A stretch of DNA of 25,741 bases from a virus. The stretch lies in the IMG/VR virus record IMGVR_UViG_3300017727_000136, positions 1-25,741 of that record. One strand, 5' to 3'. Numbering within the stretch: the stretch's first letter is position 1; the number at the start of each line of letters is the position of its first letter. Positions 4,975 through 23,794 of this stretch are shown here, in pieces. The notes beneath the pieces were generated by a model, which was not told the origin of the DNA, made no database searches, and saw nothing but the letters and a program-made list of their open reading frames with translations. A program made the translations under genes and the position numbers.

Positions 4975-5757
4975 ATGTTATCAGCAGAAAAAATCCAATC
5001 AAATTGGAATCGTTACATTCAAGTAGTAGAAACTTCGTTTTCAAAAGAACGAACAGACATATTATTACCATTTTTAGACAAGTATAAAGAAAGAATGATG
5101 ATGATGCCTGCTTCAAGCAAAAATTGGCACCATTCAGCATTTGCAGGTGGTTATACTGATCACGTTTTACGTGTGTATGATTGCGCTAATTCATTATATA
5201 AAACGTGGAAAGACATGGGTGCTGATATTTCAACGTACACTGTTGAAGAAATGCATTTCGCAGCTTTATTTCATGATTTAGGTAAAATGGGTCAACAAGA
5301 AGGTGAATATTATCAACCAAACGACTCAAAATGGCATGTTGAAAAATTAGGACAAATATATAAATTCAACACAGATATACCTGCGATGAAAGTCCCAGAA
5401 CGTTCATTATTTATACTACAGGAAATTGGTTGTAAAGTAACTCAAAACGAGTATATTACAATTAAAATCCATGATGGTTTATATGATGAGTCAAATAAAT
5501 TTTATTTTATGTCTGGTCAAAAAGAAACTAGACTCAGAACTCATTTACCAATATTAATGCACCAAGCAGATCACATGGCTGCTCAAATTGAATTTGAAGA
5601 ATGGAATAATGCATCTGATGCTGTTCCTAAATCAAAACCAGCTAATGCATCTAAAGGTGATAAAACACTAAGAGCAGCTAAAAAAGTAAACGTAGAAAAT
5701 AACCCAAAATTAGCATCAGCAACATTAGATGTTATAGATTCATTTTTTAAAGACTAA
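4975..5757 (+). CDS. HD-domain phosphohydrolase, YhaM-like
   Basis: This 260-aa protein carries the metal ligands of an HD domain: H52/H53, H63, the H100-D101 pair in FHDLGKMG, and later candidates at H166, H196 and H200 (MHQADH). The entry motif PASSKNWHHSAFAGGYTDH closely resembles the HD domain of the YhaM family of 3'-5' exoribonucleases, but the OB-fold usually found in front of it is missing. It could act on RNA, on nucleotides or on a signalling nucleotide; the sequence does not decide. T4 has no counterpart that I know of. The C-terminal 60 residues are Lys/Ala/Asn-rich and less conserved in appearance. Its stop overlaps the start of the next gene (TAATG). Confidence 0.8.
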   Translation: MLSAEKIQSNWNRYIQVVETSFSKERTDILLPFLDKYKERMMMMPASSKNWHHSAFAGGYTDHVLRVYDCANSLYKTWKDMGADISTYTVEEMHFAALFHDLGKMGQQEGEYYQPNDSKWHVEKLGQIYKFNTDIPAMKVPERSLFILQEIGCKVTQNEYITIKIHDGLYDESNKFYFMSGQKETRLRTHLPILMHQADHMAAQIEFEEWNNASDAVPKSKPANASKGDKTLRAAKKVNVENNPKLASATLDVIDSFFKD

Positions 5758-6034: not shown

Positions 6035-6802
6035 ATGTCAAATGAAAAAAAATCAGAACCGGCTACCACCGGTTCTCTTACTCCCGAACCCGTTGTTAAA
6101 AAAAGACGAGGTAGAAAACCATCTAAAAAACAATATTTTACCTCAGATGTAGACGCTGCTATAAAAGAATATTTAGCATCCTCTAATCAAGAAGAAAGAA
6201 ACGAAATATATCGTTCTCGTATAGCGTACGCTTTTTATAAATTAGCTGAAAATCTAATCCACACATTTAAATTTTACTATACAGAGGTAGAATCATTAGA
6301 AGATTTAAAACATGAGGTTTGTTGTTTTTTCTTAGAAAAACTAGATTATTTTAAACCAGAAAAAGGATCTAAGGCATTTTCGTATTTTTCTATTGTAGGT
6401 AAAAATTATCTTATACTATATAATAATAATAACTACAAAAAGAAAAAAGCCAAAGTAGACCCATTAGCAGCAGACGAAGATGCTGGTGTATTACGTCAAT
6501 TAGGTAGAGATGATCGTAAAAAAGATATAAAAGAATTTATAGACTATTTTACCGAATATGTAGATAAACACATGTTTACTTTATTTAAAAAAGATCATGA
6601 TAGAAAAGTATGTGATGCTGTAAATATATTATTTAAACGAAGAGAAAATTTAGAAATATTTAATAAGAAAGCACTATACATTTATATAAGAGAGATGACT
6701 GGTGTAGAAACCCCAGTAATTACTAAAGTAACTAAAGTACTTAAAAAACTATATAAAAGACTTTACACTGAATATGCCGAAACAGGGTATGTAAGAGTTT
6801 AA
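6035..6802 (+). CDS. 55: Late-transcription sigma factor, T4 gp55-like
   Basis: Residues about 88-135 (LEDLKHEVCCFFLEKLDYF, then KAFSYFSIVGKNYL, then a Lys-rich stretch) match sigma region 2 as seen in T4 gp55. In T4, gp55 binds the host RNA polymerase core and recognises the short late promoter. This protein has 255 residues, against about 185 in T4. The extra parts are an N-terminal tail with KKRRGRKPSKK (about 22-32, AT-hook-like) and a C-terminal helix-turn-helix-like stretch (IREMTGVETPVITKVTKVL, about 218-236). The final residues (ETGYVRV) do not show the hydrophobic/acidic clamp-binding tail of T4 gp55. The first candidate late promoter lies just after its stop. Confidence 0.8.
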   Translation: MSNEKKSEPATTGSLTPEPVVKKRRGRKPSKKQYFTSDVDAAIKEYLASSNQEERNEIYRSRIAYAFYKLAENLIHTFKFYYTEVESLEDLKHEVCCFFLEKLDYFKPEKGSKAFSYFSIVGKNYLILYNNNNYKKKKAKVDPLAADEDAGVLRQLGRDDRKKDIKEFIDYFTEYVDKHMFTLFKKDHDRKVCDAVNILFKRRENLEIFNKKALYIYIREMTGVETPVITKVTKVLKKLYKRLYTEYAETGYVRV

Positions 6803-6829: not shown

Positions 6830-7210
6830 ATGGATCCATTAAATCAAGTATTATTCGATGATGTTTCTTTCTCTGATTTATTGAAAGATATCCACGGCAA
6901 CCAAAAGAAAAAAGCCAAACAATTAGCTCAACTTATATCTGAGTTAAAGCCATTAGTGCAATCTTTGGGTGATGCCACTGTTGTAGTGCCATTAATAAAA
7001 GAATACATGGAAATCAGTGTAAAAAACGATGATGCATTAATAAAAATGGCAGCAATTGTACAACGCTTATCAACTGGCACAACTAATTCGGGTGATGGTG
7101 GATTATTGACAGAGGAAGAAATGGCTCAACTTCAAGATTTAACTGAAGAAATAGCTAAAACTGTTGAAGAACCTAAACAATTAGATACACCTAAAGATGG
7201 AAATAGCTAG
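6830..7210 (+). CDS. Small helical virion-associated protein, function unknown
   Basis: The 126-aa product is helical and mixed-charge in residues 14-85 (FSDLLKDIHGNQKKKAKQL, LKPLVQSLGDATVVVPLIK) and acidic in the last 40. It is the first gene after the candidate late promoter and its last 14 bases overlap the start of the hub protein gene. By position it should be a baseplate or tail-assembly protein, perhaps a chaperone or a hub partner. No homologous T4 gene is recognised. Confidence 0.65.
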   Translation: MDPLNQVLFDDVSFSDLLKDIHGNQKKKAKQLAQLISELKPLVQSLGDATVVVPLIKEYMEISVKNDDALIKMAAIVQRLSTGTTNSGDGGLLTEEEMAQLQDLTEEIAKTVEEPKQLDTPKDGNS

Positions 7211-8123
7211 AGTTCAAGAAATAATAACAGATAAAGAACTTCAAGAAAAATATTATAATATATATGGAAAAGAAGATTCTATAGGAAGTATATTATTTAC
7301 TTTTTTAGATGAACCTACACCTATAAATTTTAATCCTTCTACTTGTAGAGTAGCTAAGCCTTTAAACTATAATATTTCGCATTATCCCGTAGCTGGTGAA
7401 TTAGTTCATGTTATCCCCGCCCCTGGTGAATCATATAATACAAATGGTAGGATGGAGTATTATTATCTTGCACCTATATCTATTTATCAACAACCTAACA
7501 GTGATTCATATCCTGATAGTTTAGATGAAGATAATGAATATTATAAAGGTCAATATTTTCAAAATGCTGATAATATAAATCCTTTACTTCCCTATGAAGG
7601 AGATATTATGATAGAAGGTAGATTTGGTCAATCAATAAGATTTGGTTCTACTATAGATAATTCAAAAGTAACAAAACCTAACAGATGGAGCAATGAAGGA
7701 GATTTAGGAAATCCTATAACAATAATTAGAAATGGTCAAACAACTTCCCCAGATAGTTTTAATGGGGATAGAATTTTAGAAGATATAGATCAAGATCCCT
7801 CAAGTATTTATCTTTGTTCAAACCAACAATTATCTAATTTCCAACCAGCTTCCTTATATGATGAATCATATGGTCAAGATATATTTAAAGAAATACAAAA
7901 AGAAGAAGTAATAATTTCTGATGATGAAATAACACCTAATACAGTAGAAGACAAAGAACTTAATTCAACATCTAACCTACCAGCAGAAGAACTCCAAATA
8001 GTCCAAGAAGATTTACAAGATACCCCATATTCTTATTACGATATAGCAGGCACAGAAGAAATAGATGATAATTTCTTTGTAGGAGCAGATGATTTACCTG
8101 ATACTAACGAAGAAAACATATAA
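7197..8123 (+). CDS. Baseplate hub/spike OB-fold protein, gp5 N-domain-like
   Basis: The first 110 residues are beta-rich, with a strand pattern usual for OB-folds of spike proteins (HYPVAGELVHVIPAPGE, YYYLAPISIYQQPN). A second conserved-looking part reads GDIMIEGRFGQSIRFGS, GNPITIIRNGQ and EDIDQDPSSIYLCSNQQ, motifs I associate with hub proteins of marine T4-like phages. The last 80 residues are acidic and probably disordered. The next two genes supply a peptidase and a beta-helix, so the three together match the domain order of T4 gp5. The start overlaps the previous gene by 14 bases. The 309-codon frame is intact. Hub role is likely; the exact gp5 equivalence is inferred. Confidence 0.65.
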   Translation: MEIARVQEIITDKELQEKYYNIYGKEDSIGSILFTFLDEPTPINFNPSTCRVAKPLNYNISHYPVAGELVHVIPAPGESYNTNGRMEYYYLAPISIYQQPNSDSYPDSLDEDNEYYKGQYFQNADNINPLLPYEGDIMIEGRFGQSIRFGSTIDNSKVTKPNRWSNEGDLGNPITIIRNGQTTSPDSFNGDRILEDIDQDPSSIYLCSNQQLSNFQPASLYDESYGQDIFKEIQKEEVIISDDEITPNTVEDKELNSTSNLPAEELQIVQEDLQDTPYSYYDIAGTEEIDDNFFVGADDLPDTNEENI

Positions 8124-8125
8124 AA

Positions 8126-8725
8126 ATGGCATTAGATTTTACATATAAAGAATATTATAGTTCACTAACCGCAATTAAAAATAATATTAATAATAAACCA
8201 GGAGTAGATGAAAGTTTAGATCCTGCTTTTTCAGAAGCTAATATAAAAATTAATTTAGAAAAACTTCATTATAATGTTATTGACCCTATAAGAAAAGCAT
8301 TTCCACCTTATACAAATGGAAATAATAAAGATATATGGATTACATCAGGTTATAGGTGTAAAGAATTAAATAATGGGAATAAAGGAATAAAACCATCAGG
8401 AGCTCTAAATTCACAACATAAATATGGTTATGCTGTAGATATTTTTAGTATTAAATCTCGTGCTTCACTAATATTTAATTGGTGTTATCAAAATTTACCT
8501 GCATGGAATCAGATGATATGGGAATTTCCCGAAAAAGGTGATTGGGTGGATGGAACAAAAAGCCCAGCATGGGTTCATATATCTTATGTTGAAGGAAATA
8601 ATAGAAAAGGATGCTCTTTAGCTTCTAATAGAGAAGATCTCCATGAAATGTATAAAACAGAATTTACTACTCGTTCAGGAGCTTATACCCACGGAATAAC
8701 TTTAGCAGACCAAAATTTAATATAA
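8126..8725 (+). CDS. Zinc D,D-carboxypeptidase/endopeptidase, M15 family
   Basis: The product cleaves peptide cross-links of peptidoglycan. Its M15-type motifs are SGYRC (74-78), SQHKYGYAVDI (96-106) with zinc ligands H98 and D105, a probable catalytic E133 in WEFP, and the third zinc ligand H151 in WVHISY. The length (199 aa) fits M15_3 phage enzymes. No signal peptide or membrane segment is visible. It lies between the hub OB-fold gene (2-base gap) and the spike beta-helix gene (1-base overlap), which places it at the lysozyme position of T4 gp5 and suggests a baseplate enzyme that opens the wall during DNA entry. A lysis endolysin is the alternative. Confidence 0.85.
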   Translation: MALDFTYKEYYSSLTAIKNNINNKPGVDESLDPAFSEANIKINLEKLHYNVIDPIRKAFPPYTNGNNKDIWITSGYRCKELNNGNKGIKPSGALNSQHKYGYAVDIFSIKSRASLIFNWCYQNLPAWNQMIWEFPEKGDWVDGTKSPAWVHISYVEGNNRKGCSLASNREDLHEMYKTEFTTRSGAYTHGITLADQNLI

Positions 8726-9198
8726 TGGCATATATACCTCAAGCACCAGGATCATATCAAGGAAACCAAGTATTAATTAATTCTGATAGATTAACATTTA
8801 ATGCTAAAGAAGATAGTATATTATTATTTTCAAATAAAGCTATAGGGTTTAGTACTAATGGTAGTTTTCATTTTGATACTAGCCCTAATGAAAGTGAAAG
8901 TAAATTTGTAGTAAATTCACCTAATATATATTTAGGTTTAGAATTCGACAATACATTACCAACACAACCAGCAGTACTAAGTGATGAATTAATTTCATCT
9001 TTAACTGAAATTTTAGATTTAATTGCAAAAGTATATCAAGATTTATCATTTAATATATCTTTTATATCTACTTCTCCTGGAAGTCCTACAGGTATGAACC
9101 CTACTAATTATAATATATTAGAAAAAAGAATAAGAGAAATTCAAAAAATACAAGATAGTTTTGAAAGTTTTAAAAGTCAAAACACTAAATTAGTATAA
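8725..9198 (+). CDS. Baseplate spike beta-helix protein, gp5 C-domain-like
   Basis: Residues 14-75 consist of short regular strands (VLINSDRLTFNAKEDSILLF, AIGFSTNGSFHFDT, VVNSPNIYLGLE) typical of the beta-helical needle and its closing segment in T4-like spike proteins. The following part (LSDELISSLTEILDLIAKVY) is a helix often found after the needle in these proteins, and the last 40 residues are a second helix. The 157-aa product would form the puncturing device, probably as a trimer. Its start shares one base with the peptidase stop (TAATG). Confidence 0.65.
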   Translation: MAYIPQAPGSYQGNQVLINSDRLTFNAKEDSILLFSNKAIGFSTNGSFHFDTSPNESESKFVVNSPNIYLGLEFDNTLPTQPAVLSDELISSLTEILDLIAKVYQDLSFNISFISTSPGSPTGMNPTNYNILEKRIREIQKIQDSFESFKSQNTKLV

Positions 9199-9200
9199 AA

Positions 9201-10115
9201 ATGTCAACTAGAGCTATAAAAAATATTATTTCGTCTAAATTAGATTCTTTAATTACAAGATCTAAACAAAAAATTAAAGAAGAGGGAAAAAATAAAATCA
9301 CTGATTTAAAAAAACAACTTCCTACCCCCAACGAAATTAGAGAAAAATTAAAAATAGATATAAACCAGGATTCTTGTAGTGCTGAAGGACAAGAAAAATT
9401 TGATAAAAAAATAGCTATCTTAAGTAATAGATTAAATTTTATTAATAATAATGTAAAGTCCTCTTTAGATGAAATTAATAAAGTAGATGAAAAAATTACA
9501 GAAATAATTAATGCGGATGTTGATGGACCCATAGGACAAATACAAAAAACAGTAAAACCATTAGAAATTTTAGTAAAAACCCTCCAATATTTCTTAATTT
9601 TAGCCCCTCTTATATATTTAGCTAATTCTGGCCCCACAGCTAGTGGAGCAATACAAGCTCAAACAGCTAAAAAAGAAGAAAAAGCTAACTCTAAAGTGGG
9701 TGAATATATAGCATTATTTGCCTCTATTCCCCTAATTATAGCTTACTTTAGAAATGAAGCAAATAAAATTAAAAAATCTATAAACACTATAAAACCCAAA
9801 CTACAATTTATTCAAAATGAAGTCATTAAATTACAAACATATATGGCTGCATTAGCTCTACAACAACAAGTAGATTGTTTAAATTTGAATAATGGGGGTA
9901 ATAATAGTGAAGGTGAAGCAACACCTACTTATTCTGATTTAGAATTATATCTTCAACAACTTCAAGACCAATATAACGTAGTCTTACAAGAATTACAAGT
10001 AAAGGGAAAAACAAAAGCTATAGAAAGAACTTATACTTTAAAACAAGTATTAGATAGTTTTGAAGAAGACTATAATACAAGTTTTAAAACCATTAATCCC
10101 ACTAACATTCAGTAA
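9201..10115 (+). CDS. Coiled-coil protein with two hydrophobic segments
   Basis: A 304-aa protein with charged helices at residues 1-125, a hydrophobic stretch at about 128-148 (LQYFLILAPLIYLANSG), a second at about 169-186 (YIALFASIPLIIAYF), then more coiled coil to the end. In a baseplate operon, a coiled coil with membrane-like segments fits a tape-measure or hub-core protein that enters the host membrane on infection. It is shorter than usual tape measures (T4 gp29 has about 590 residues). It lies between the spike and gp25 genes. An inner-membrane assembly factor is the alternative. Confidence 0.6.
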   Translation: MSTRAIKNIISSKLDSLITRSKQKIKEEGKNKITDLKKQLPTPNEIREKLKIDINQDSCSAEGQEKFDKKIAILSNRLNFINNNVKSSLDEINKVDEKITEIINADVDGPIGQIQKTVKPLEILVKTLQYFLILAPLIYLANSGPTASGAIQAQTAKKEEKANSKVGEYIALFASIPLIIAYFRNEANKIKKSINTIKPKLQFIQNEVIKLQTYMAALALQQQVDCLNLNNGGNNSEGEATPTYSDLELYLQQLQDQYNVVLQELQVKGKTKAIERTYTLKQVLDSFEEDYNTSFKTINPTNIQ

Positions 10116-10133
10116 TAAAAAAAACAAAAACTT

Positions 10134-10142
10134 TATATTTAT
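10134..10142 (+). promoter_or_regulatory. Candidate late promoter motif TATATTTAT
   Basis: This copy lies in the 46-base gap after the coiled-coil gene, 19 bases before ATG 10162, and is followed by the A-rich TAACAAACAACAA. It resembles the motif at 22053 and would start the gp25-gp6 transcript. Confidence 0.45.
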
Positions 10143-10161
10143 TAACAAACAACAATTAACA

Positions 10162-10605
10162 ATGAAAGCAAAAACCTTTGAAAATCTAATTAGAAAAGTA
10201 GTTAGAGAAGAAATCGATTATGCTCTACGTAGAGAAATTAAATCACTTAAAGAAGATTTACGTGATGAACTTAAACCAACAATCACAGAACACACTGAAA
10301 GAATGGTAGAAGTTCCTGAAGAAACAAAAACTTCTTTAAGAGAAAAAATAATGGGTAAAAAACCTATTAAAAAACAAGAACGAAATTTTACAAATAATTC
10401 AGCTTTAAATGATTTATTAAATGAAACGGCAATGGGAGATACAAATACACAAACAGCCCAATCACCTGTAAGTTTATCAGACCCATTTTCATCTGAAGCC
10501 CCATTACCAATGGATACAACAGGTATGCCAGATTCAGTAGCTGATGCAGTTACAAGAGATTATAGTGGTTTAATGAAAGCAATTAACAAGAAAAAAGTAA
10601 ACTAA
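10162..10605 (+). CDS. Small helical baseplate-region protein with LIRKVVREEI N-terminus
   Basis: The start at 10162 is preferred over the in-frame ATG at 10060. The earlier one lies inside the preceding gene, and the promoter-like motif lies between them. The 147-aa product begins MKAKTFENLIRKVVREEIDY, a helix of the same type as at 1825 and 2412, continues as a charged helix to about residue 65, and ends in a Ser/Pro/Met-rich, probably disordered part. It shares one base with the gp25 start. By position it is a structural or assembly protein; no family is recognised. Confidence 0.65.
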   Translation: MKAKTFENLIRKVVREEIDYALRREIKSLKEDLRDELKPTITEHTERMVEVPEETKTSLREKIMGKKPIKKQERNFTNNSALNDLLNETAMGDTNTQTAQSPVSLSDPFSSEAPLPMDTTGMPDSVADAVTRDYSGLMKAINKKKVN

Positions 10606-11009
10606 TGCCTATAATTAAAGGAACAGGAAGAATAAATCCATTAGATCTTAATAGAGATTTTACTATTGGGCTAGAGTTTCCTTTAAATGAAGAAAATATG
10701 TTTTCAGGAACTGAAACAACAGCAGATCAAGCTAGAGCAAATTTAATTGATGTGTTATTAACATATCCTGGAGAAAGAATTAATTTACCTAATTTTGGTG
10801 TAGGATTAAGAAATTTATTATTTGAACAAAATATAGATTTAGTTATATTAAAAGAAAAAATTCAAACCCAAGTAGCTAGATACATGGGAAATATTAGAAT
10901 TGATGAACTGGATTTAAATTATTCAGAAGATCAACAAACTATATTTATAAGTATAACTTATGGTTTACTAGATGGTACTTCAGATAGTATACAATTAAAT
11001 TTTAACTAA
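10605..11009 (+). CDS. 25: Baseplate wedge protein gp25
   Basis: The 134-aa product matches the gp25 / GPW family in length (T4 gp25 has 132) and in its core motif, LLTYPGERINLPNFGVGLRN (residues 51-70), which contains the conserved ER pair and the PxFG turn. gp25 links the wedge to the tail tube-sheath start and resembles the sheath handshake domain. It lies directly before gp6, as in many contractile systems, sharing one base with each neighbour (TAATG). Confidence 0.92.
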   Translation: MPIIKGTGRINPLDLNRDFTIGLEFPLNEENMFSGTETTADQARANLIDVLLTYPGERINLPNFGVGLRNLLFEQNIDLVILKEKIQTQVARYMGNIRIDELDLNYSEDQQTIFISITYGLLDGTSDSIQLNFN

Positions 11010-12895
11010 TGGCCTATAATAAAGTATTAAATACTCCTAAAGAGAAAGAAATAAAATATCTAAATAAAGATTTTAATTCATTTAAAAATCAGTTAATAGA
11101 ATTTACCCAAACATATTTTCCTGATAATTTTAATGATTTTAGTGAAGGTAATCCGGGTATGATGTTTTTAGAAATGTCCGCGTATGTTGGGGATGTTTTA
11201 TCTTTCTATACAGATAACCAAATACAAGAAACATTTTTATCTTTAGCTCAAGATAAAGAAAATCTTTATAATATGGCGTATGCTATGGGGTATAAACCTA
11301 AAACAACCTCAGCAGCAAGTACCAATTTAGATATATCCCAATTAGTACCTTCTAAAATAGTAAATGACACTTATGTTCCCGATTATGATTATGCTTTAAA
11401 TATTAGAGCCAACTCAACATTTGGTTCAACAGAGGGATCTACTTTTTATACAACTCAAGATGCTGATTTTACTTATTCATCATCTATAAATAATATAAGT
11501 ATTTTTCAATATGATGGTTCAAATAATCCCGAGTATTATCTTATTAAAAAAACAGTCCCCGCAATTTCAGCTGAATCTAAAACCCAAACATTTACTATTG
11601 GTGCACCTGAAAAATTTAAAACATTAACACTATTTGATACAAATATTATATCAATAGAATCAATAACTGATTCAGATGGGAATATTTATTATGAAGTACC
11701 TTATTTAGCCCAGGATACTATATTTGAACAAGTAGAAAATATAGGAGCTAATGATCCCCTTCTACAACAATATAGTGGAGAAACTCCTTATTTAATTAAA
11801 TTAAAAAAAGTCCCAAGGAGATTTATATCTAGAGTTAAACCAAACAATCAAATGGAAATCCAATTTGGTGCTGGTATAAGCGATAAAGCAGACGAACAAA
11901 TTATTCCTAATCCCGATAACATAGGTTTAGGGATAAAAGATGGTAGATCTAAATTAGATGTAGCATATGATCCATCTAACTTTTTATATACAAAAGCTTA
12001 TGGTCAGGTTCCATCTAATACAACATTAACTGTAACTTATTTAGTAGGTGGGGGGTTATCCTCTAATGTAAATAGTAATACTATAACTCAACCTGAAACA
12101 TTATTAATCACTAATAAACCCAATTTAAATATTGGTATGTTAACTTTTGTAAAATCTTCTGTAAGTTCTACAAATGTAGAAGCAGCCAAAGGGGGTGGAG
12201 CTGGAGATAGCATAGAGGATGTTAGACTTAATGCAATATCTTCTTTTTCTACCCAAAATAGAACAGTAACTAAAAACGATTACATCATTAGAAGTTTAAG
12301 TATGCCCCCACAATTTGGTGCTATAACTAAAGCATATATAACACAAGATGACCAAATGTCTCCACTAACTACTGAACCGAACCGTATACCAAATCCTTTA
12401 GCTTTAAACTTATATACTTTAGGATATGATTCTAATAAAAAATTAAGTACTTTAAATACAGCTACTAAAACTAATCTAGCTACATACCTAGAAGAACATA
12501 GAATGTTAACAGATGCCATTAATATTAAAGATGCATTTATTATTAATATAGCTATTGATTTTGAAATAACCGTATTTAAAAATTATAATAATCAAAAAAT
12601 ACTATTAGATTGTATTGCTGAACTTAAAAACTATTTTAATATAGATAAATGGCAAATAAACCAACCAATTATTTTATCTGATGTTAAAAATTTAATAGGA
12701 GGAGTAAATGGAGTACAAACAGTAGAAAATATTACATTTTCAAATAAAAATGGAACTATAAGTGGATATTCACAATATATTTACCCAATACAAGCAGCTC
12801 TTAGAAATGAGGTACTTTATCCATCGTTAGATCCAAGTATTTTTGAAATTAAATACCCAGATACAGATATTAAAGGACGCGTAACAACATATTAA
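11009..12895 (+). CDS. 6: Baseplate wedge protein gp6 (J-like)
   Basis: The 628-aa product is close in length to T4 gp6 (about 660). The N-terminal part contains NPGMMFLEMSAYVGDVLSFY and ENLYNMAYAMGYKP (about 48-96), typical of gp6 and P2 gpJ-like proteins. The segment AVTKNDYI-type (TVTKNDYIIRSL, about 418-429) is the second conserved block. gp6 dimers form the ring that joins the six wedges around the hub. It follows gp25 with a 1-base overlap and is followed by a 2-base gap. Confidence 0.9.
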   Translation: MAYNKVLNTPKEKEIKYLNKDFNSFKNQLIEFTQTYFPDNFNDFSEGNPGMMFLEMSAYVGDVLSFYTDNQIQETFLSLAQDKENLYNMAYAMGYKPKTTSAASTNLDISQLVPSKIVNDTYVPDYDYALNIRANSTFGSTEGSTFYTTQDADFTYSSSINNISIFQYDGSNNPEYYLIKKTVPAISAESKTQTFTIGAPEKFKTLTLFDTNIISIESITDSDGNIYYEVPYLAQDTIFEQVENIGANDPLLQQYSGETPYLIKLKKVPRRFISRVKPNNQMEIQFGAGISDKADEQIIPNPDNIGLGIKDGRSKLDVAYDPSNFLYTKAYGQVPSNTTLTVTYLVGGGLSSNVNSNTITQPETLLITNKPNLNIGMLTFVKSSVSSTNVEAAKGGGAGDSIEDVRLNAISSFSTQNRTVTKNDYIIRSLSMPPQFGAITKAYITQDDQMSPLTTEPNRIPNPLALNLYTLGYDSNKKLSTLNTATKTNLATYLEEHRMLTDAINIKDAFIINIAIDFEITVFKNYNNQKILLDCIAELKNYFNIDKWQINQPIILSDVKNLIGGVNGVQTVENITFSNKNGTISGYSQYIYPIQAALRNEVLYPSLDPSIFEIKYPDTDIKGRVTTY

Positions 12896-12897
12896 AA

Positions 12898-14058
12898 ATG
12901 GCACATTACTTTTTATTTCCAGAAATAGATACAACTTTATATAGTCACCCTGATAGATCAGAAATGAATGTAGGTAGTGATGAAATTCTTGAAGTTGTAA
13001 AAGAACGAGGTACAACAAACCAAATTTTATACCCATCAAGAATTTTAATAAAATTTAAAAATGATGATATTCAATCAACAATTGAAAATTTAATAGGATC
13101 TTCAACATTCAATTCTTCGGCCCAAGTTAATTTACAATTAATAGCAGCAGAACCTAAAAACCTACTATCTACCTTAAATTTAGAATTATTTGCAATATCT
13201 CAATCGTGGGATGAGGGTACAGGTAGATACTCTAATTTCCCCACGGGCTCCAATGGTGCTAGTTGGAAATACAGAAATAATACTACAGTAGCTACTGAAT
13301 GGACTACTTCAAGTTTTGCCTCAAGTACAACTGGATCTGTAGATAGTTCATCTCCCATAACCCAAGGAGGAGGAGTATGGTATACGGGTAGTGGATTTAC
13401 CTCTACACAACAGTTTTTAATAGGGGATTCTTTGGATACTAATTTTGATGTAACTGATATAATAAAAAAGTTCAGTGCTAGTTTATTTACTAATGCTACT
13501 TACCCCACAGGTATTGCAAATAATGGATTCTTAATTAAAAAACCAAAAACTATAGAAGAAAATACTTCAGCTAGTTTTGGTGAATTACAATACTTTTCAG
13601 TAGATACTCATACTATACATCCCCCAAAATTAGTTTTTAAATGGGATGATAGTTCATTCTCTTCAGCCTATACAGGTAGTTCAAAACAATCTGGAAATTT
13701 AAATGTTTCGTTATATAGAAATCAAGAAGAATATAACCAAAATGATGAAGCTATTTTTAGAATCCATGTCAGAGATAAATATCCTATTAGACAATTTGCA
13801 TCATCCTCAAATTATCTAAATACGGGATATTTTACAACAGCATCTTATTATAGTGTAAGAGACGCCCATACAGAACAAGAAATAATCCCCTTTGATACTA
13901 GCTATACTAAATTAAGTGCAGATAATGAAGGTATGTTTTTTAAATTATATATGAAAGGTCTTCAACCAGAAAGATACTATAGAGTTTTATTTAAACATAT
14001 TAACAATGATGGTACTAAAATATACGATGATAAATATTATTTTAAAGTTGTTAGATAA
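12898..14058 (+). CDS. Virion protein with DNRLRE-like domain
   Basis: The N-terminal 250 residues follow the DNRLRE pattern: TTLYSHPDRSEMNVGSDEIL, SRILIKF, a later SQSWDEGTGRYSNFP with SWKY, GGGVW, and FDVTDIIKKF. DNRLRE domains are beta-sandwich modules in bacterial surface and extracellular proteins. The remaining 136 residues are beta-rich and end YYFKVVR. Location right after gp6, where T4 has gp7 and gp8, suggests a baseplate wedge or fibre-attachment component. Its stop shares one base with the next start. The fold assignment is by eye. Confidence 0.65.
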   Translation: MAHYFLFPEIDTTLYSHPDRSEMNVGSDEILEVVKERGTTNQILYPSRILIKFKNDDIQSTIENLIGSSTFNSSAQVNLQLIAAEPKNLLSTLNLELFAISQSWDEGTGRYSNFPTGSNGASWKYRNNTTVATEWTTSSFASSTTGSVDSSSPITQGGGVWYTGSGFTSTQQFLIGDSLDTNFDVTDIIKKFSASLFTNATYPTGIANNGFLIKKPKTIEENTSASFGELQYFSVDTHTIHPPKLVFKWDDSSFSSAYTGSSKQSGNLNVSLYRNQEEYNQNDEAIFRIHVRDKYPIRQFASSSNYLNTGYFTTASYYSVRDAHTEQEIIPFDTSYTKLSADNEGMFFKLYMKGLQPERYYRVLFKHINNDGTKIYDDKYYFKVVR

Positions 14059-15764
14059 TGACCAAACAAAATATAAAACTTCAAAAATCTGTTATAAGTA
14101 ATAAGGAATCTAATAACTTACATACTAAAGATTTTAACCAATTAGCTAAATCAGATACACAAGTAGATGTTAATAAAATCCAAAATGTATATGATGAAGT
14201 TTTTTATAATACCCCTAAAAAGGGTACTTATTCCCATTCAACTATTGTTGAAAAAATCCATAATTATATTAATTATTTAAGTAATCAAAACAAAGAAAAC
14301 AAAATTAATAATCTAACAGATGAAATTATTTTTTTAAATGAAAAATTAGATGAACAATTAGAACCAGAAATTAGACAGCACCCTATATATGATAATGGAT
14401 CTTTTCTAATAGCAGGTGAAAATGGCGAAAAATATGATGGAAACGATACTGTATATATAATGCAAGAAGGTTATAAAAGGCCTTTTAAAAATGAAGAAAT
14501 ATATAAAGTAGTTAGAAAAGCTTTAGATTTACCTTTTGAAGGTCCTAATTTATATGGTGATTTATATTATGTAAATCTAGATGAATTAAATAGAATAGAT
14601 GAGGGTAAAGCCATAGAAACAACTAGTGATTTAAATATTACAGGAAAATTTCTTGATGTAGAAGATACATTGATTACTGCAAATTATTCTAGTTATCTTA
14701 TAAAAATTAGATGCCAAGGTACTGAAATTCAAGATATTTCAGACAACCTAATATCAGAACCAGACGCACTTTTTTATTATGATGGGGGTTGCAGTATAAG
14801 ATATTATGGTAAAAATTATACTGATGATCCTTATGAACTTCCGGGTGAAACACCCCTTAATGTTCCTTTAACTCTTGATAGAGATGAAGAAATCATTATC
14901 AGAATAGGAAGAAACAACGATGAACAAACATTTGTGGATGGAGTTCCACAAAATGTAAACTACTCTACCCCCACAGTTCAATATAATGGAAATAATGTTC
15001 AAAATTATATCCAAAACTGGGGTATTAATGGCAAATATAAGGGATTTTCTAAAATTGAAGGAAGAGTTCTCTACAAAGAATTAGGAAGAGATTCTGACAC
15101 ATACTCTTCAAATGAAATTTCAGAGAATTGGAAAGTTTTAAATGGTTTACCCTCTAATTTCAATATAGCAGTAGGTGTTTTAGGTGAAGAAGAAAGTTCA
15201 TATGGAACGAGAATAATTTATCCTAGGGGATCAGGTCTTTATGGAGACCAAAATCATGAAGATAATCTCCAACAAACAGTATTTGACGATCCTAGTAACA
15301 TGTATTATAGACCTGAATTTTATGGTCAACCAATATTTAGGGCTAATAGTGATTATGTAGTATTAGTAGGAAATATAGGAAACTCAACTATACTTTTATC
15401 TTTAGATAAAGAAAATAAACAACCAGCCCCCTTTATGACTAATACACTTTATGGTACAGTAAAAAATTGGGGGTGGTCACAAGATCTTTTAGATGATATT
15501 AAAAATTTCCCTTGCTATATATGGGGTAATGATCGATTAAAACAATTTAATTTACCTCAAAAGAAAAGCGATGGTAGTTTTAATTGGACAGCTCATTCTA
15601 ATAATGATGACTACTATAACCCTGGAAGATTAAGACATAAAGGAATTAAAACCATAGGAAGTTATGGTTTCCAAACAGAAGGATATAAAAAAGGAACTAA
15701 AAATGGAACTTACAATGGAGCGGGATATCCCCTATATTTATGGGATACTTGGATACCTTGGTAA
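14058..15764 (+). CDS. Baseplate structural protein, module shared with next gene
   Basis: A 568-aa protein with a charged N-terminal helix region (1-107), then a module at about 108-158 (HPIYDNGSFLIAG, TVYIMQEGYKRPFKN, EEIYKVVRKAL) that is repeated in the following gene, then a large Asn/Gly/Tyr-rich beta part. The C-terminus (about 460-568) has many Trp and Tyr (NWGWSQDLL, YPLYLWDTWIPW), as in receptor-binding or fibre-connecting domains. No T4 homolog is recognised by sequence; position suggests a wedge protein. Confidence 0.65.
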   Translation: MTKQNIKLQKSVISNKESNNLHTKDFNQLAKSDTQVDVNKIQNVYDEVFYNTPKKGTYSHSTIVEKIHNYINYLSNQNKENKINNLTDEIIFLNEKLDEQLEPEIRQHPIYDNGSFLIAGENGEKYDGNDTVYIMQEGYKRPFKNEEIYKVVRKALDLPFEGPNLYGDLYYVNLDELNRIDEGKAIETTSDLNITGKFLDVEDTLITANYSSYLIKIRCQGTEIQDISDNLISEPDALFYYDGGCSIRYYGKNYTDDPYELPGETPLNVPLTLDRDEEIIIRIGRNNDEQTFVDGVPQNVNYSTPTVQYNGNNVQNYIQNWGINGKYKGFSKIEGRVLYKELGRDSDTYSSNEISENWKVLNGLPSNFNIAVGVLGEEESSYGTRIIYPRGSGLYGDQNHEDNLQQTVFDDPSNMYYRPEFYGQPIFRANSDYVVLVGNIGNSTILLSLDKENKQPAPFMTNTLYGTVKNWGWSQDLLDDIKNFPCYIWGNDRLKQFNLPQKKSDGSFNWTAHSNNDDYYNPGRLRHKGIKTIGSYGFQTEGYKKGTKNGTYNGAGYPLYLWDTWIPW

Positions 15765-15774
15765 TAAAAAATAA

Positions 15775-16647
15775 ATGGCTTATAAATTTAAAACATCTAA
15801 AAAACCACAAACTTCTAAAGTCTCTAAATATGAGGGACCAAGAGATACATTTGGTAATCCTGTGTCTTTAAAAAACCCTTCACAAGAAGCAACAACTACC
15901 GATATAGAGATTACAACCTTACCTATTATAGAACCCACAAGCCAAATAGAATATTCAGTAGAAAAACTTCCTTATAATATAAATTTAAATAAAGAATTAT
16001 ATGGAAAAAGAACAGCATTAGAAGAATTAGATGAAGAATTTACTGAATTTATTTTGACTAAATATACTACTAAAGATTTTTTTAATTTATTGAATAAATT
16101 CTTTTATAATATAGATAGAGAAACTCTCAGTAAATTCATGGGGGTAAGTGGGAATTATATAGGGGGGTATAAAAATCCCCTAGATGTAGAAATCAGTACT
16201 TTAAAACAAGAAGTAAATTTTATTAAAGACCAAATAGATTCTATAGAAAAAGAACATCCTTATCTTAAAAATGGAAAAGTTATAGCTGATTCTATTTATA
16301 AAAATAATGCATCCGCAGCTGTACAACAAGGTAATATTTTTTATATTCAATCTAAAAAAAGAAGACCTATCCAAAATATAGAAGTATATAAAGGTATAAA
16401 AAACAGACTTAGTAAAAATATTAATACTAATTCAAACCAAATAAGTGATCAAGATTTTATAATATTTATAGATCAAATCTATTCTTTACAAGAAGGACCA
16501 CCAATATTTACTTTTGATGATATTTATACACCGCCAGCCGACGCAGGAACCGATAATATTACTTTATATCTTAATAGATATGGTTCTTCACAGTTGGGAG
16601 TTATAGATCAAAGTTTAAATGAATTAGATATAAACAACAGAGTATGA
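15775..16647 (+). CDS. Baseplate structural protein, paralogous module
   Basis: The 290-aa product has a Lys/Ser/Pro-rich N-terminus, a helical middle with coiled coil (LKQEVNFIKDQIDSIEKE, about 142-159) and a module at about 160-212 (HPYLKNGKVIADS, NIFYIQSKKRRPIQN, IEVYKGIKNRL) matching the one in the gene at 14058. The end is beta-like. Its stop overlaps the next start by 4 bases (ATGA), so it is probably translationally coupled to the 1228-aa protein and may be its partner. Confidence 0.65.
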   Translation: MAYKFKTSKKPQTSKVSKYEGPRDTFGNPVSLKNPSQEATTTDIEITTLPIIEPTSQIEYSVEKLPYNINLNKELYGKRTALEELDEEFTEFILTKYTTKDFFNLLNKFFYNIDRETLSKFMGVSGNYIGGYKNPLDVEISTLKQEVNFIKDQIDSIEKEHPYLKNGKVIADSIYKNNASAAVQQGNIFYIQSKKRRPIQNIEVYKGIKNRLSKNINTNSNQISDQDFIIFIDQIYSLQEGPPIFTFDDIYTPPADAGTDNITLYLNRYGSSQLGVIDQSLNELDINNRV

Positions 16648-19600
16648 TTAAAAACTACATACAATTTGACCAATATTCAGGAGGTGGTGGAGGTAATAAT
16701 ATAAGTGGCCCTGCTGTTGTTGTTAATAATACTCCTACTGAATTACCAGAAGAAGAAACAAACCAGTCTACTAATATATCTGAAACTCAAGAAGACACAT
16801 TAGTATTAGATACCCTTTCATCTAAAACTATAGATAGAAATTTTGGAAAAGTTGATGATTATATAGAATTACACATATATAATAACAATAACCAATTAAT
16901 ATATTCAGAAGAAAACTTTAAAGATTATTCTCTTACTCTTGAAGAACCACAAACCACTTCTAATAATATACAAATTGACCCTAATAAAATTTTAACAGAC
17001 AGAAATTTTATTACAGGACAATTTAGAATTAAATTAAATATACTAAGAAATAAAATCTTTAATTCTTCAGAATTTCCTTTTTTATTAAAAGAAATATCTA
17101 TAAGTAAAAGAGAAATCAAAGCTACCGCCCCCACAGTAACTAATCCAACTTTAGACAATGCGGTAAGTGGTTTTATTTCGGATATAGAGTCATCTGTTTA
17201 TTTTAAAGAATTTTCAATTAATTTGGGGGGTGATTTATTAATACCTTGTATTAATATATTATTAAATAAAGAATCTATTAGACATGAAGTTTTATTAAAA
17301 ACTCTAGATCCTTTACCCAATAATATATCAACTAAATCACCTTTTAAAGTTGTCGAAGAAATAGTAGACCCTATTTTTATTGATATAGACTTAGGAGACC
17401 CACAATTAGTTGACACAGGAATTCCTTTAAGGGGTCCAAATTTCCATATTGATATTAGACAAAATAATTCTGTTCCTAGTGGTTTTAAAAGTTATAATGA
17501 ATTACTAAGTTATAATGTAACATCTTCATATCAACATTTATTAAGTAAATTAGAAACTCCAGGTTTAGATTTAGATATTCAATATGATTATATAAGACCT
17601 ATACCTGAAAATCTTCAGGGAATAGATATACCCTATCATTTTGACAATTTTGTTCATTTTAGTAATGCTTCAGAGCGTTTAAAAAACTTTAAGTATAAAC
17701 TAGAATTAATAGAGTTATATGATAGACAAATAGCAACTAACCAAAGTATCCCAGGAAACGCCTCATCATCTGCTACTACAATATATGCTAGAAATACTAT
17801 CAATGATAAAAAGGAAAACCTAATAAAAGGTTTTGATGGATATGAACAATTCTTATATTTTGAATCAGGTGCTTTTTCGTGGCCAAAACAAAACACAACT
17901 AGACCTTATACTTTATATTCTGTTACTTCATCCCAAGCTAAAACCTGGTTAGGAGATAATAGATCAGACTATCCTAATTATGGGGGTCAATTATTATCAG
18001 CTTCTTTATTTGATAAACAAAATGTTTATGCATTAGAAAAAACTATTCCTACTTTTATAAAAGAAAACTCAGAAAACAATCTGTATATAAGTTTTGTAAA
18101 CATGGTAGGTCAACATTTTGATACTATATGGTCTTATATAAATGATATAACAAAAATAAACAATTCTCACCACACATTAGGTATATCTAAAGATCTTGTT
18201 TATTACCAATTAAAAAGTTTAGGGTTAGAAGCTTTTGATCAATTTGAAAATTCTAATCTTTTAGAATATATTCTAGGAGAGGGTACAGGTAGTAATCAAT
18301 ATGATGTAGAGAATTTTTATTCTTCATCAGGTATCCCTTCTGAAACTATAGTAACTGCCTCAAATGCAGGTTCAATTCCTAAGAATGATATAACAAAAGA
18401 AATTTGGAAACGTTTATACCATAATGCACCCTATCTTTTAAAAACTAAAGGAACAGAAAGAGGAATTAAGGCATTAATGAGTTGTTATGGTATTCCTTCA
18501 AGTATTTTAAGTATAAAAGAATATGGAGGTTCTACTACTACCTCAGGACGTTTAAAAGATTTAGATTTATCCGATTATTATAAAACTTTTAAATACGAAA
18601 AAGCTAGTTTAGCCTTAAAAGGTGATTCAGGTACTGACGGGTTTTTTATAAAAACAAACTTTTCATCAGCATTAGCAGATACTTATTTTACTACTACTCA
18701 ACAAGGAAAAGAAACAATTGAATTTAGAATTAAACCCTATAGATTAGGAGATAACCAACATTTACTTACACTATCTGGTTCTTCAACTGATGGGTCCAAT
18801 TATGCACCAGCTAATGATCAATCTCTAATATTACAACCTTATATAGGCAATGATATTTCTTCTTCTAATGATTCAACTCAATATGGAAGAATAGCATTAC
18901 ACAGAGCGGGAAGTGATGTTGAAGTAACTCCATATTTTCCTATTTTTAATGGCGATTTTTGGAATGTATTTATAAACGCAAATAAAAACCCATCAAACGA
19001 AGCTGAAATAACATTTGGGGCTTATCAAGCCAATTTTAATCAGCATATATCCTCTTTCACTACTTCTTCTACTACATCTAATTACCAGTTTTGTTGGGGT
19101 CTTAACCATAAAGGAGCTAAAGATGCTTTCTTTGGGGGTATTCCTGCTAATACACTCGCAAATTTTAATAATATTGATGGTTTAAGATATTCTGGTTCAA
19201 TGCAAGAAATTAGAATATATCTAGGAGAAAATTTAAACACTACTACTCTTAAAAAACACGCCCTTGAACCATTTATGTATGGGGGTAATAATATTTCTTC
19301 TTCTTATGAAAATTTAATTCTTAGATTACCTTTAGGTAGTAATGATCAAGAAAATAGCTCTAGTTTTCACCCTAACATAGATGTACCCTTCTTGGGTATG
19401 GAAGGTGGGGTATCAAGTTCTATGGCTTCTCAAACATGGGAAGAAATATTAGAATTCCATTATTTACCTACTCCCGATACTGTAGGTATTTCAACAACAA
19501 GTGAAAAAGTTAGAATAGATACAGGAACTGTTAATGAAAATATATTATCACCCTTCAAGAAATTCGAAACATCTACATTAGATAGGCAACCACAAGATTT

Positions 19601-20330
19601 TGAAGATTTAGGAATATTCTTTTCACCCACTAATGAAATAAATGAAGATATAATTTATCAACTAGGTTCATTTAGATTAGATGATTATATAGGTTCTCCC
19701 TTACCTTCAGCCCAAACATCTTCAAATTATGGAGACTTAAAATCTATAAAAGATACATACTTTAAAAGAGTTAAAAGAAGATACAATTACCTAGACTATA
19801 TAAAACAAATCCAATATATAGATCACACATTATTTAAAATAATAGAACAATTTGTACCTTTTAGAACCAATCTAAAAACAGGATTAGTAGTAGAACCCCA
19901 CCATTTAGAAAGAACTAAATTCCAAAGAACACTACCTGTAAGATCTGATGCCCAAACAACTATACCTGGTACACATCAAAATATTGAAACCTCTATTAAT
20001 TTAAATTATTATAGTGGCTCTATTTATTCTTTAAATGATTCTAGTGTAGTTAGTGTAGATAATTTATCTTTTACTACTTCGAGCAAAGGTAAAAGATTAG
20101 ATAAAGGTACTAATGGTACAATTCATATTTATGATGATCATTTAGATCCTTTTGGAAAAGACCCTAATAGAGAAAATAACCAATCATCCCAAGCACCCAT
20201 TAAACCTTACACTGGTACTAAACCTTCAAATTACATAGCACACGAATCGTCTGTTTTATTAGGAAATGTACCATCAGGAAGAAAATCTAATAAGTATTAT
20301 AAATATACTGAGTTTCATTTAAATAGTTAA
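16644..20330 (+). CDS. Large (1228 aa) baseplate/tail protein with LamG-like domain
   Basis: The first 40 residues are Gly- and Asn/Thr-rich. Residues about 586-605 (IWKRLYHNAPYLL, KTKGTERGIKAL) followed by YGIPSS resemble the conserved core of tail protein I / wedge proteins. Residues about 660-880 look like a LamG/concanavalin-like beta-sandwich (IEFRIKPYRLGDNQHLLTLS, FNGDFWNVFINAN, GSMQEIRIYLGENL), which often binds carbohydrate. A C-terminal part at about 1040-1110 (RRYNYLDYIKQIQYIDH, GLVVEPHHLERTKFQR) is conserved in look. T4 gp7 is the nearest by size (about 1030) and position, but I see no proof of homology. Confidence 0.7.
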   Translation: MIKNYIQFDQYSGGGGGNNISGPAVVVNNTPTELPEEETNQSTNISETQEDTLVLDTLSSKTIDRNFGKVDDYIELHIYNNNNQLIYSEENFKDYSLTLEEPQTTSNNIQIDPNKILTDRNFITGQFRIKLNILRNKIFNSSEFPFLLKEISISKREIKATAPTVTNPTLDNAVSGFISDIESSVYFKEFSINLGGDLLIPCINILLNKESIRHEVLLKTLDPLPNNISTKSPFKVVEEIVDPIFIDIDLGDPQLVDTGIPLRGPNFHIDIRQNNSVPSGFKSYNELLSYNVTSSYQHLLSKLETPGLDLDIQYDYIRPIPENLQGIDIPYHFDNFVHFSNASERLKNFKYKLELIELYDRQIATNQSIPGNASSSATTIYARNTINDKKENLIKGFDGYEQFLYFESGAFSWPKQNTTRPYTLYSVTSSQAKTWLGDNRSDYPNYGGQLLSASLFDKQNVYALEKTIPTFIKENSENNLYISFVNMVGQHFDTIWSYINDITKINNSHHTLGISKDLVYYQLKSLGLEAFDQFENSNLLEYILGEGTGSNQYDVENFYSSSGIPSETIVTASNAGSIPKNDITKEIWKRLYHNAPYLLKTKGTERGIKALMSCYGIPSSILSIKEYGGSTTTSGRLKDLDLSDYYKTFKYEKASLALKGDSGTDGFFIKTNFSSALADTYFTTTQQGKETIEFRIKPYRLGDNQHLLTLSGSSTDGSNYAPANDQSLILQPYIGNDISSSNDSTQYGRIALHRAGSDVEVTPYFPIFNGDFWNVFINANKNPSNEAEITFGAYQANFNQHISSFTTSSTTSNYQFCWGLNHKGAKDAFFGGIPANTLANFNNIDGLRYSGSMQEIRIYLGENLNTTTLKKHALEPFMYGGNNISSSYENLILRLPLGSNDQENSSSFHPNIDVPFLGMEGGVSSSMASQTWEEILEFHYLPTPDTVGISTTSEKVRIDTGTVNENILSPFKKFETSTLDRQPQDFEDLGIFFSPTNEINEDIIYQLGSFRLDDYIGSPLPSAQTSSNYGDLKSIKDTYFKRVKRRYNYLDYIKQIQYIDHTLFKIIEQFVPFRTNLKTGLVVEPHHLERTKFQRTLPVRSDAQTTIPGTHQNIETSINLNYYSGSIYSLNDSSVVSVDNLSFTTSSKGKRLDKGTNGTIHIYDDHLDPFGKDPNRENNQSSQAPIKPYTGTKPSNYIAHESSVLLGNVPSGRKSNKYYKYTEFHLNS

Positions 20331-20332
20331 AC

Positions 20333-22030
20333 ATGCCTTACAACGAAAATTATATATCCCCCGGACCCTTAGGATCAGTTTCACATAGTTTTAGTGGAAG
20401 ACAACTAACAGCAGAATTTGATGATGCCTTAGTAGATCAAAAAGCATGGAAAAATTCAAGATACGAAGGATCAAAACTTACAGCAGCCCAAATAAATAAA
20501 TTTACTGCAGGAGATGAAAGTTACCAAACATTACCTGTTCTTACTAACCAATCAACTGCTATTTATATAGCTAACACAGTTATAGGAGGTACAGAAGATG
20601 AACAATTTGCTACAATAAAAAATCATTCTTATGTTGGAATTAATAAAATTTTAATAGTTAATCCCCAAGATAATACAATTCAAATATTAGATAAAACTAC
20701 AGAACCCTTTAATGAATTCCATAGATTTATAACAAATGACTTCCCTACAGGTAAAAAAGCTTTTGTAAAAGTTATAGATGAATCAATTCAAACAAATTTA
20801 AAAGGACATCATAGGGTTAAAATGAATAAAGGTTATCTTCTAAAATCTTTTGATTTTAATTATGCAGGAGAATTTTCAGGTTCTAGCCAAACCGATACAC
20901 TTACTGAAAATAACTCAATGTATTTATATCAATCAAGTTCTTTTAGAGATAATTTTGTAATAACTGGATCCCTAAATGCTATTGATGCTACTATAACCCA
21001 ACCAAATGATTTAAGATTTAGGTATGGTTTGATAGAAATGTTTAGTGGTGATTCTGAAGGAACTAGCGGTCATAACTCACTTAAACAATCCAGAATAGGT
21101 CCATTATTTATATCTTCTTCTATTATAGAAAATAAATTTACTTCCCAATATTATTCAGGTAGTTTTGGATTAATTAAACACCAAAATGGGGATTCAGCAG
21201 ATGATGCTATTTTACTAGGAGGATCTTCATTAGGATCAGCTAGTAAATTTTTAGGGTTAAATACCCTAAATTTTCTTACAAATAATATAGCTGATAATAC
21301 TTTAACACAGCAAGAAAAAACTGAGTTACATGTAACTTTTTTTGAAGGTACTAAAGATTTTGCTCCTGGTTTTTATGATGAAAGAAGTATTAGTACATTT
21401 GAAATAGACCAAAATATAGGAAATTTAATGATAGAACAGGGGGGTTCATGTAATGCAGGACTCCCTACAAACCATGAATTTGTTTTTAAGGGTAGAAATG
21501 ATGATAGGTTTTTATCTAAATTAAATAAATTTGAAGATGCAATAGTTAATAGCCATATACAATCAACAGCTTCAAGTGGTATAAATGGATGTAATCCTAC
21601 TTATGATACAAATGATATTTCTGGTGATTTATTATATCCCGGTGTAACTTCAGATAGGTTTGAAATTAATTGTATTGTACAAGGAGGAGCTTTAGGGGTT
21701 ATAGGATATGAAGGTGCCCAATCCGCTAGTTCGACTCAATATGGTAATTCATTATCCTCAAGCATGGCATCCAATAATTTCTACTCAGGATCCTTTAATT
21801 ATGAAGTATCATTTTTAGATAAAGACCATACCTTAATTTTAGATTTAGATAAAGAGGCAGAATTATTTGATGGAATAGGAGAAAAAGGATTAGTCATAAT
21901 CCCCCAAGATTCAGACTCACAAATAGCATTTAATATTGAATATTATTTGACTCAAGCAGGTATAATAAACAACCCAAATTCAACCTTACAAAATTCAAAT
22001 AATAGTACACCACCAGGAAATTTAGAATAA
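20333..22030 (+). CDS. Virion structural protein, function unknown
   Basis: The 565-aa product is beta-rich with many Ser, Asn and Thr and two or three Cys (around 381, 423 and 448: GGSCNAG, GCNPTY, NCIVQGG). The N-terminus reads MPYNENYISPGPLGSVSHSF. No family is recognised. It lies 2 bases after the 1228-aa gene and ends before a 48-base gap with a promoter-like motif, so it is the last gene of that unit. A fibre or wedge-periphery protein is likely by context. A canonical T4-type TATAAATA lies 27 bases before the start, inside the end of the previous gene. Confidence 0.65.
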   Translation: MPYNENYISPGPLGSVSHSFSGRQLTAEFDDALVDQKAWKNSRYEGSKLTAAQINKFTAGDESYQTLPVLTNQSTAIYIANTVIGGTEDEQFATIKNHSYVGINKILIVNPQDNTIQILDKTTEPFNEFHRFITNDFPTGKKAFVKVIDESIQTNLKGHHRVKMNKGYLLKSFDFNYAGEFSGSSQTDTLTENNSMYLYQSSSFRDNFVITGSLNAIDATITQPNDLRFRYGLIEMFSGDSEGTSGHNSLKQSRIGPLFISSSIIENKFTSQYYSGSFGLIKHQNGDSADDAILLGGSSLGSASKFLGLNTLNFLTNNIADNTLTQQEKTELHVTFFEGTKDFAPGFYDERSISTFEIDQNIGNLMIEQGGSCNAGLPTNHEFVFKGRNDDRFLSKLNKFEDAIVNSHIQSTASSGINGCNPTYDTNDISGDLLYPGVTSDRFEINCIVQGGALGVIGYEGAQSASSTQYGNSLSSSMASNNFYSGSFNYEVSFLDKDHTLILDLDKEAELFDGIGEKGLVIIPQDSDSQIAFNIEYYLTQAGIINNPNSTLQNSNNSTPPGNLE

Positions 22031-22052
22031 TTTGCACTTTTTTAAAAAAACA

Positions 22053-22070
22053 TATATTTATAACAAAATA
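22053..22070 (+). promoter_or_regulatory. Candidate late promoter TATATTTATAACAAAATA
   Basis: In the 48-base gap before the gene at 22079, this site shares 17 bases with the one at 6811. The core ends 17 bases before the ATG, behind a T6A7 run that may bend the DNA or form a weak terminator. It would start the fibre-gene transcript. Confidence 0.5.
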
Positions 22071-22078
22071 CAACAACA

Positions 22079-22732
22079 ATGGGATACTTAGATAATAGTT
22101 CAATAACTGTAGATGCGATACTAACAAAAAGAGGTCGTGAATTACTGTCAAGAAATGATGGTTCTTTTAAAATAACACAATTCGCTTTGGGTGATGATGA
22201 AATTGATTATTCATTATTTAATGAAAATCACCCAAATGGTACTCAGTACTCAGCAGAAGCAATTGAAAACATGCCCTTAATTGAAGCTATTCCTAATGGA
22301 GCTAACATGATGAACTCAAAGTTAATTACTTTAACTAGAGGAGCTAACGCTATACCATATATTCAAGTAACAAATGCTACAATTAGTGTTAATCAAGGAC
22401 AAAGCTTCCAAGTAACCCCATCAACTTTCAACCTTACGGGTACTAACGTAGCAGCTTCAGAAGAATATATATTTACTGTATTAGATAGTAGATTAGTAGA
22501 TGATTTTGTAGGTACAGGTGGTACCGCTACAGCAAGTGCATCAGATATAGCTGAATTTAGTACTATAGAACAATCACTTTCAGTAAGAGGAGGAGCACTA
22601 TCAGTATTACCTACTGTAGCCAATGCTTTATTTAGCTCAACTGTTACCTCAAGAACAACAAGTATAATTGTAGAGGGTGTAACTTCAGGAGCTATAAAAA
22701 CAATCTCTCTTACTATTAATAAAACAAATTAA
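22079..22732 (+). CDS. Virion structural protein with conserved N-terminal domain
   Basis: Residues 1-85 (GYLDNSSITVDAILTKRGRE, FKITQFALGDDEIDYSLFN, AIENMPLIEAIPNGA) form a domain I have seen in tail proteins of marine phages. It may be the attachment part of a fibre. The remaining 130 residues are Thr/Ser/Val-rich and beta-sandwich-like, with no recognised family. It opens the third structural unit, behind the candidate promoter at 22053, and is followed after 12 bases by another fibre-like gene. Confidence 0.65.
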   Translation: MGYLDNSSITVDAILTKRGRELLSRNDGSFKITQFALGDDEIDYSLFNENHPNGTQYSAEAIENMPLIEAIPNGANMMNSKLITLTRGANAIPYIQVTNATISVNQGQSFQVTPSTFNLTGTNVAASEEYIFTVLDSRLVDDFVGTGGTATASASDIAEFSTIEQSLSVRGGALSVLPTVANALFSSTVTSRTTSIIVEGVTSGAIKTISLTINKTN

Positions 22733-22744
22733 AAATAAAATATA

Positions 22745-23782: not shown

Positions 23783-23794
23783 AATGTCATTTAA

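Follow-up and report, generated by a model that had tools for sequence, protein, structure and literature searches.

Three adjoining genes in this marine phage sequence very probably encode, for a contractile tail, a single gp5-like central spike that pierces cells, with the enzyme carried in the virion. The proposal is based on the gene order, the OB-fold model of the first product, the M15 family assignment and metal ligands of the second, the octads of the third, and the single OB–M15 chains and enzyme exchange observed in relatives. The M15 peptidase is most likely part of a virion-borne drill and not a lysis gene. The analysed sequence, hereafter the window, was the entire IMG/VR record of 25,741 bases, which is a fragment of a virus. 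A search of the literature for a description of this three-gene arrangement found none. Fusion, fission and enzyme-swap states in the related phages form a natural series that links enzyme-free spikes, such as P2 gpV, with T4 gp5 and its lysozyme, and the arrangement in these phages shows how drilling tips get assembled from parts. The linker and the gene borders mark natural joints between the parts of the spike. Two questions become testable, namely, how a contractile injector acquires a wall-cutting enzyme and why gp5 undergoes cleavage in T4.

Gene layout and baseplate context

The three genes adjoin on the plus strand in the ORF list (Table 1). The OB gene and the M15 gene are separated by a gap of 2 nt, and the stop codon of the M15 gene overlaps the start of the spike gene by 1 nt (TAATG). 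The initial annotation had described an OB-fold-like protein, an M15 peptidase and a spike as three abutting genes, and both the order and the positions were upheld. The genes sit in a baseplate gene block, upstream of the gp25 and gp6 genes; the gp25 gene comes two genes after the spike gene and is followed by the gp6/J-like gene. T4 gene 5 is also located upstream of T4 gene 6. The arrangement is not a product of chance because it recurs in dozens of contigs.

Genes for an HD-type phosphohydrolase (4975-5757) and a sigma-70-region-2-like protein (6035-6802) were observed directly upstream of the spike genes. Similar phosphohydrolase and sigma-70-region-2-like genes occur at the equivalent place in two related loci (L002 and L003), and phage immuto has an annotated phosphohydrolase there. 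At the 3′ end (14058-25552) lie seven large ORFs, the longest of 1228 aa. Compared with PHROG at E 0.1, five gave no match and two a weak one; these large ORFs probably encode tail fibres or adhesins.

Table 1. Features of the spike genes and of their baseplate context in the window
Feature	Position	Strand	Basis
OB gene, spike N-terminal protein, 308 aa (OB barrel, beta extension, acidic linker)	7197..8123	+	ORF, AF2 model, relatives
OB barrel, residues 1-105 (strands 2-9, 32-36, 51-55, 69-76, 86-90)	7197..7511	+	AF2, structure matches
Beta extension, residues 135-210, GDIMIEGRFGQSIRFGST...PITIIRNGQ	7599..7826	+	Matches to P2 gpV and P1 past their OB barrels
Acidic low-confidence linker, residues 225-308	7869..8120	+	AF2, alignment
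Linker motif YYDIAGTE, OB residues 280-287	8034..8057	+	Alignment of relatives
Peptidase_M15_3 (zinc peptidase) gene, 199 aa	8126..8725	+	Pfam, PHROG, alignment
Zinc ligand H98	8417-8419	+	Alignment
Zinc ligand D105	8438-8440	+	Alignment
Zinc ligand H151	8576-8578	+	Alignment
Spike (needle) gene, 157 aa	8725..9198	+	ORF, relatives, AF2 model
Octad repeat, residues 14-53, probable triple-stranded beta-helix	8764..8883	+	Periodicity test
Helical hairpin of the spike, residues 86-149	8980..9171	+	AF2 monomer model
gp25-like baseplate wedge gene (context)	10605..11009	+	PF04965, E 2.7e-10
gp6/J-like baseplate wedge gene (context)	11009..12895	+	PHROG 219, E 9.6e-17

The OB-fold protein, the M15 peptidase and the needle

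The first product had no match in Pfam, PHROG or NCBIfam, and nothing was found for it among PDB sequences. Its AlphaFold2 model, built with 90 relatives, reached a pLDDT of 79 (about 82-98 by block for residues 1-210) and contains five strands within residues 2-90, further strands at 137-207 and a disordered tail from about residue 240. Foldseek placed P2 gpV and R2 pyocin spikes at ranks 1-9 against the PDB, with weak E values of 0.14 and up. In VIA-align, the model matched P1 (Z 6.3, 132 residues), P2 gpV (5.9, 123 residues), AFP (5.9), VgrG (5.8) and Mu (5.6); the top nine rows, all at Z below 8, were mostly central spikes that belong to phages, injection systems or T6SS, and the lower rows also mixed in generic OB folds, for example cold-shock proteins (Z 4-6 overall). 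The matches to P2 gpV, P1, AFP, VgrG and Mu cover residues 1-196 to 1-233 of the product, that is, an OB-fold followed by beta structure, and the beta extension is probably the top of the needle. A predicted viral protein in BFVD, annotated as glycoside hydrolase family 19, also matched the model (E 1.5e-7). The OB-fold earlier ascribed to this product is supported by the five-strand barrel of the AlphaFold2 model and by best solved matches that are OB-bearing central spikes, at modest scores. A Z below 8 is weak by itself, but an OB spike protein is also indicated by the enrichment of spikes among the matches, by the location in the genome and by the fused relatives.

The second product matched PF08291 (Peptidase_M15_3) in Pfam at E 1.2e-5 and 25.8 bits, which passed the cut-off of 23.2, and its best solved relative was 1lbu, a muramoyl-pentapeptide carboxypeptidase (E 7e-5). 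The three zinc ligands had been reported as intact; their numbering proved right, and H98, D105 and H151 do not vary among the 59 relatives compared. Candidate catalytic acidic residues are E136, kept in 59/59, and E133, kept in 52/59. Residue 148, three positions before H151, is A or S in nearly all relatives; a dead enzyme was considered on this ground and ruled out, since A or G stands at this place in true M15_3 endolysins as well.

M15 relatives of known activity act on peptides of peptidoglycan, and the modules that replace M15 in other loci are peptidoglycan amidases and endopeptidases. Both points argue against a protease for morphogenesis or maturation, or a helper that stays outside the particle, acting in tail assembly and not on peptidoglycan. 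Such a role would be compatible with M15 being a free gene in the window and an enzyme by prediction only, and we regard it as very improbable. A similar judgement, only slightly less severe, applies to a lysis endolysin that lies in the baseplate operon by chance while OB and needle form the spike alone. PHROG 894, which the product matched at E 1.2e-17, is an endolysin family; outside the group, the nearest M15 relatives come from Pelagibacter and Bacteroides phages, at 34-38% identity, and carry peptidase or endolysin annotations, and two of the four inspected adjoin holin genes. However, no holin was recognised beside M15 in the 25.7-kb window, where the gene sits between two spike genes, and the relatives described below also weigh against a lysis gene.

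The third product has an 8-residue hydrophobic period of five octads at residues 14-53 (lag-8 p 0.001; best-lag corrected p 0.008). Octad repeats are a feature of triple-stranded needles, as in T4 (PMC3004832). Judged from this periodicity, residues 14-53 probably form a triple-stranded beta-helix within a presumed trimer, and the needle-like part of the product is limited to residues 14-70. In the monomer model, the octad region is extended and is followed by two helices within residues 86-149. The search of this model against PDB folds returned no beta-helix and helical noise only, an uninformative outcome that would be expected if the protein is an intertwined trimer, of which a single chain was modelled; the sequence gave coiled-coil noise only among PDB sequences. 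The beta-helix spike that had been assigned to this gene is probable for the octad region; the monomer model offers no beta-helix match and predicts a helical hairpin further on. A match of the spike to Burkholderia phage SURPRISE13 (locus L007) was rejected as chance, its protein being unrelated.

Fused, split and enzyme-swapped relatives

Five overlapping scans of viral contigs, with the best 80 matches kept per query, yielded 164 non-identical loci, which were made unique by sequence only, so that the counts below are not numbers of independent events. M15 lies between OB and needle in 59 of the 164 loci, as its own gene in 45 and fused to OB in 14. Amidase_2 occupies the slot in 18 loci (15 fused to OB, 3 as an own gene), M23 in one, and an unknown module of 460-540 aa in four. 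The remaining 82 of 164 loci carry none of these four modules; OB and needle are fused in 55 of them and separate in 27. Some of the 82 carry other modules, namely, VanY (L204), a C39_2-like domain (L196) and a Cys-rich module (L083, L203, L205, L208 and L230). The E values of the slot modules were 1.4e-12 and 7.5e-14 for Amidase_2, 1.8e-8 for M23, 7.4e-6 for VanY and 1.1e-4 for the C39_2-like domain.

The search for fused relatives that had been suggested as a check was thus positive, with OB and M15 in one chain in 14 loci and OB and spike in one chain in 55 enzyme-free loci. Among the 164 loci (best 80 per query), the commonest relatives are enzyme-free single chains of OB and spike, like P2 gpV, and a single chain with OB, enzyme and needle was found in none. 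OB and needle also form one protein, with no recognised enzyme between them, in Microcystis phage Mel-JY01, Flavobacterium phage immuto and the uncultured megaphage LR756508. A literature search for virion data on phages immuto or Mel-JY01 found no paper and no virion proteomics. The possibility that the gene next to an enzyme-free spike supplies the hydrolase was rejected, as the 40 neighbouring ORFs included no peptidoglycan hydrolase among the families listed (25 of 33).

In several relatives the peptidase and the spike protein share one covalent chain, a finding that speaks against a role in lysis only. The endolysin explanation is further opposed by the unrelated hydrolases that take the M15 slot, also fused to OB, and by the OB-linked linker motif on the peptidase gene of one locus (L109). 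This motif, YYDIAxTE, recurs in the acidic linker between OB and M15; in the window it sits towards the 3′ end of the OB gene. It is inside one OB–M15 chain in L098 and on an own gene of 92-116 aa in L014, L018, L106, L119 and L120; it was not recognised in 31 of the 59 M15 loci and is not universal. In these sequences, the order of the parts is constant, and only the positions of the gene cuts shift.

On an unrooted OB tree of 154 loci, there are at least 17 changes of enzyme state and at least 15 of layout; enzyme gain and loss are not told apart on such a tree. The distances between loci for OB, M15 and spike are correlated (r 0.64-0.70, n=59), as would be expected if the parts travel together, and plain vertical inheritance would give the same. 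The needle is separate in 87/87 module-bearing loci versus 15/67 without a module, a difference that is clustered on the tree and represents only 5 independent contrasts.

Several slot modules were noted in their own right. The Cys-rich module (CxxCxFH...CxKWxAxV...CxxW) belongs to one clade (e.g. L208:3847-4701) and had no confident match in Pfam; its residues suggest a possible Fe-S or zinc site, and a tail tip bearing iron would be of interest. The 460-540-aa module (L043:3388-5004, L073:3876-5474, L157:542-1933 and L162:1826-3214) had no Pfam match in the three copies scanned (L043, L157 and L162) and is possibly an undescribed wall-cutting enzyme. A further slot module (L057:4772-5533) has no Pfam match and carries a GINIHRSN...NWSAGCQVF motif that resembles an L,D-transpeptidase (S-x-G-C) site. 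In L296 (4029-6056), a 676-aa gene with Cys-rich repeats lies between OB and needle; its C-terminal part is CHAP-like by eye, with no Pfam match. Pfam offered no match at E 0.01 for the annotated 'putative chitinase' encoded at 9361-10392 of Mel-JY01 (L004), and the product of 10918-11421 in this phage, annotated as a 'tail lysozyme', occupies the gp25 position and is probably gp25 and not a lysozyme.

Proposed mechanism and comparison with known spikes

In the proposed spike, an OB trimer would cap the tail tube and start the beta prism, and the 157-aa protein would trimerise as a needle beneath it. M15 would be held by a flexible linker or docked beside the needle. As a presumed component of the virion, it would reach the periplasm when the tail contracts and would there cut the peptide stems of peptidoglycan, allowing the tube to pass. 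The hydrolase module was probably added to a gpV-like spike of OB and needle, with the gene borders moving later. We give about even weight to a wider reading, according to which the genes would be an exchangeable cassette of OB, linker, at least four hydrolase families by turn and needle, in a fixed order on one to four genes; the needle would always be separate where an enzyme is present, and a gene boundary would replace the proteolytic maturation of T4, allowing assembly without cleavage.

T4 gp5 consists of domains 1-129, 174-339 and 389-575 (PMC4576200) and is cleaved between lysozyme and needle, the cut falling between Ser351 and Ala352; with its needle attached, the trimer has 10% of the monomer's lysozyme activity (PMC3004832). 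The window resembles T4 in the order of OB-fold, peptidoglycan hydrolase and needle, in long linkers, in a needle that is finally a separate chain and in a position upstream of gp6. However, T4 has one chain that is cleaved, whereas the window has three ORFs with a gene boundary at the corresponding place; lysozyme in T4 contrasts with the zinc peptidase Peptidase_M15_3 in the window, where beta strands follow the OB-fold already before the enzyme, and the needle is much shorter (about 5 octads) and ends in a helical hairpin.

The initial annotation had read the genes as T4 gp5 split in three, with the lysozyme replaced by M15. The parts of one spike in gp5 order, with a peptidase at the lysozyme position, are supported; descent from T4 gp5 is not supported. 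Direct fission of a gp5 ancestor would give the same machine by another history, and the shared domain order, the shared position upstream of gene 6 and the T4 cleavage site are in keeping with it. It is nevertheless unlikely: profile comparison (hhalign) with T4 gp5 found no similarity (probability 0.2% for OB and 0.3% for the spike), the three-part chain is absent among the loci, and half of the loci lack a recognised enzyme, mostly with OB fused to the needle like P2 gpV. The related suggestion that separate genes may reach the cleaved end state of T4 fits the data, with no module-bearing locus fusing the needle to the preceding part, but the few independent contrasts on the tree limit it. 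A better fit is that an enzyme was inserted in parallel into a spike of the gpV type and that the genes fused and split while their order stayed fixed, albeit on an unrooted OB tree; this history is preferred over a broken T4 gp5 because profile similarity is absent, the enzyme family is another and the OB protein resembles gpV-type spikes.

The M15_3 peptidases of HTVC010P, HTVC202P and BS-TP3 have the family and the H-x6-D...W-x-H ligands in common with the window gene, at 33-41% identity in the alignment. These pelagiphage and Bacteroides phage peptidases are stand-alone genes, and two of those inspected adjoin holins, whereas the window gene sits between OB and needle. The enzyme-free spikes P2 gpV, R2 pyocin spike and Mu gp45 share an OB-fold followed by beta structure, and in structure the OB product matches them best; the window differs from them in its enzyme, its separate needle and the predicted helical end of the needle protein. 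The three-gene set is best filed among the contractile-tail central spikes of the gpV/VgrG/gp5 superfamily.
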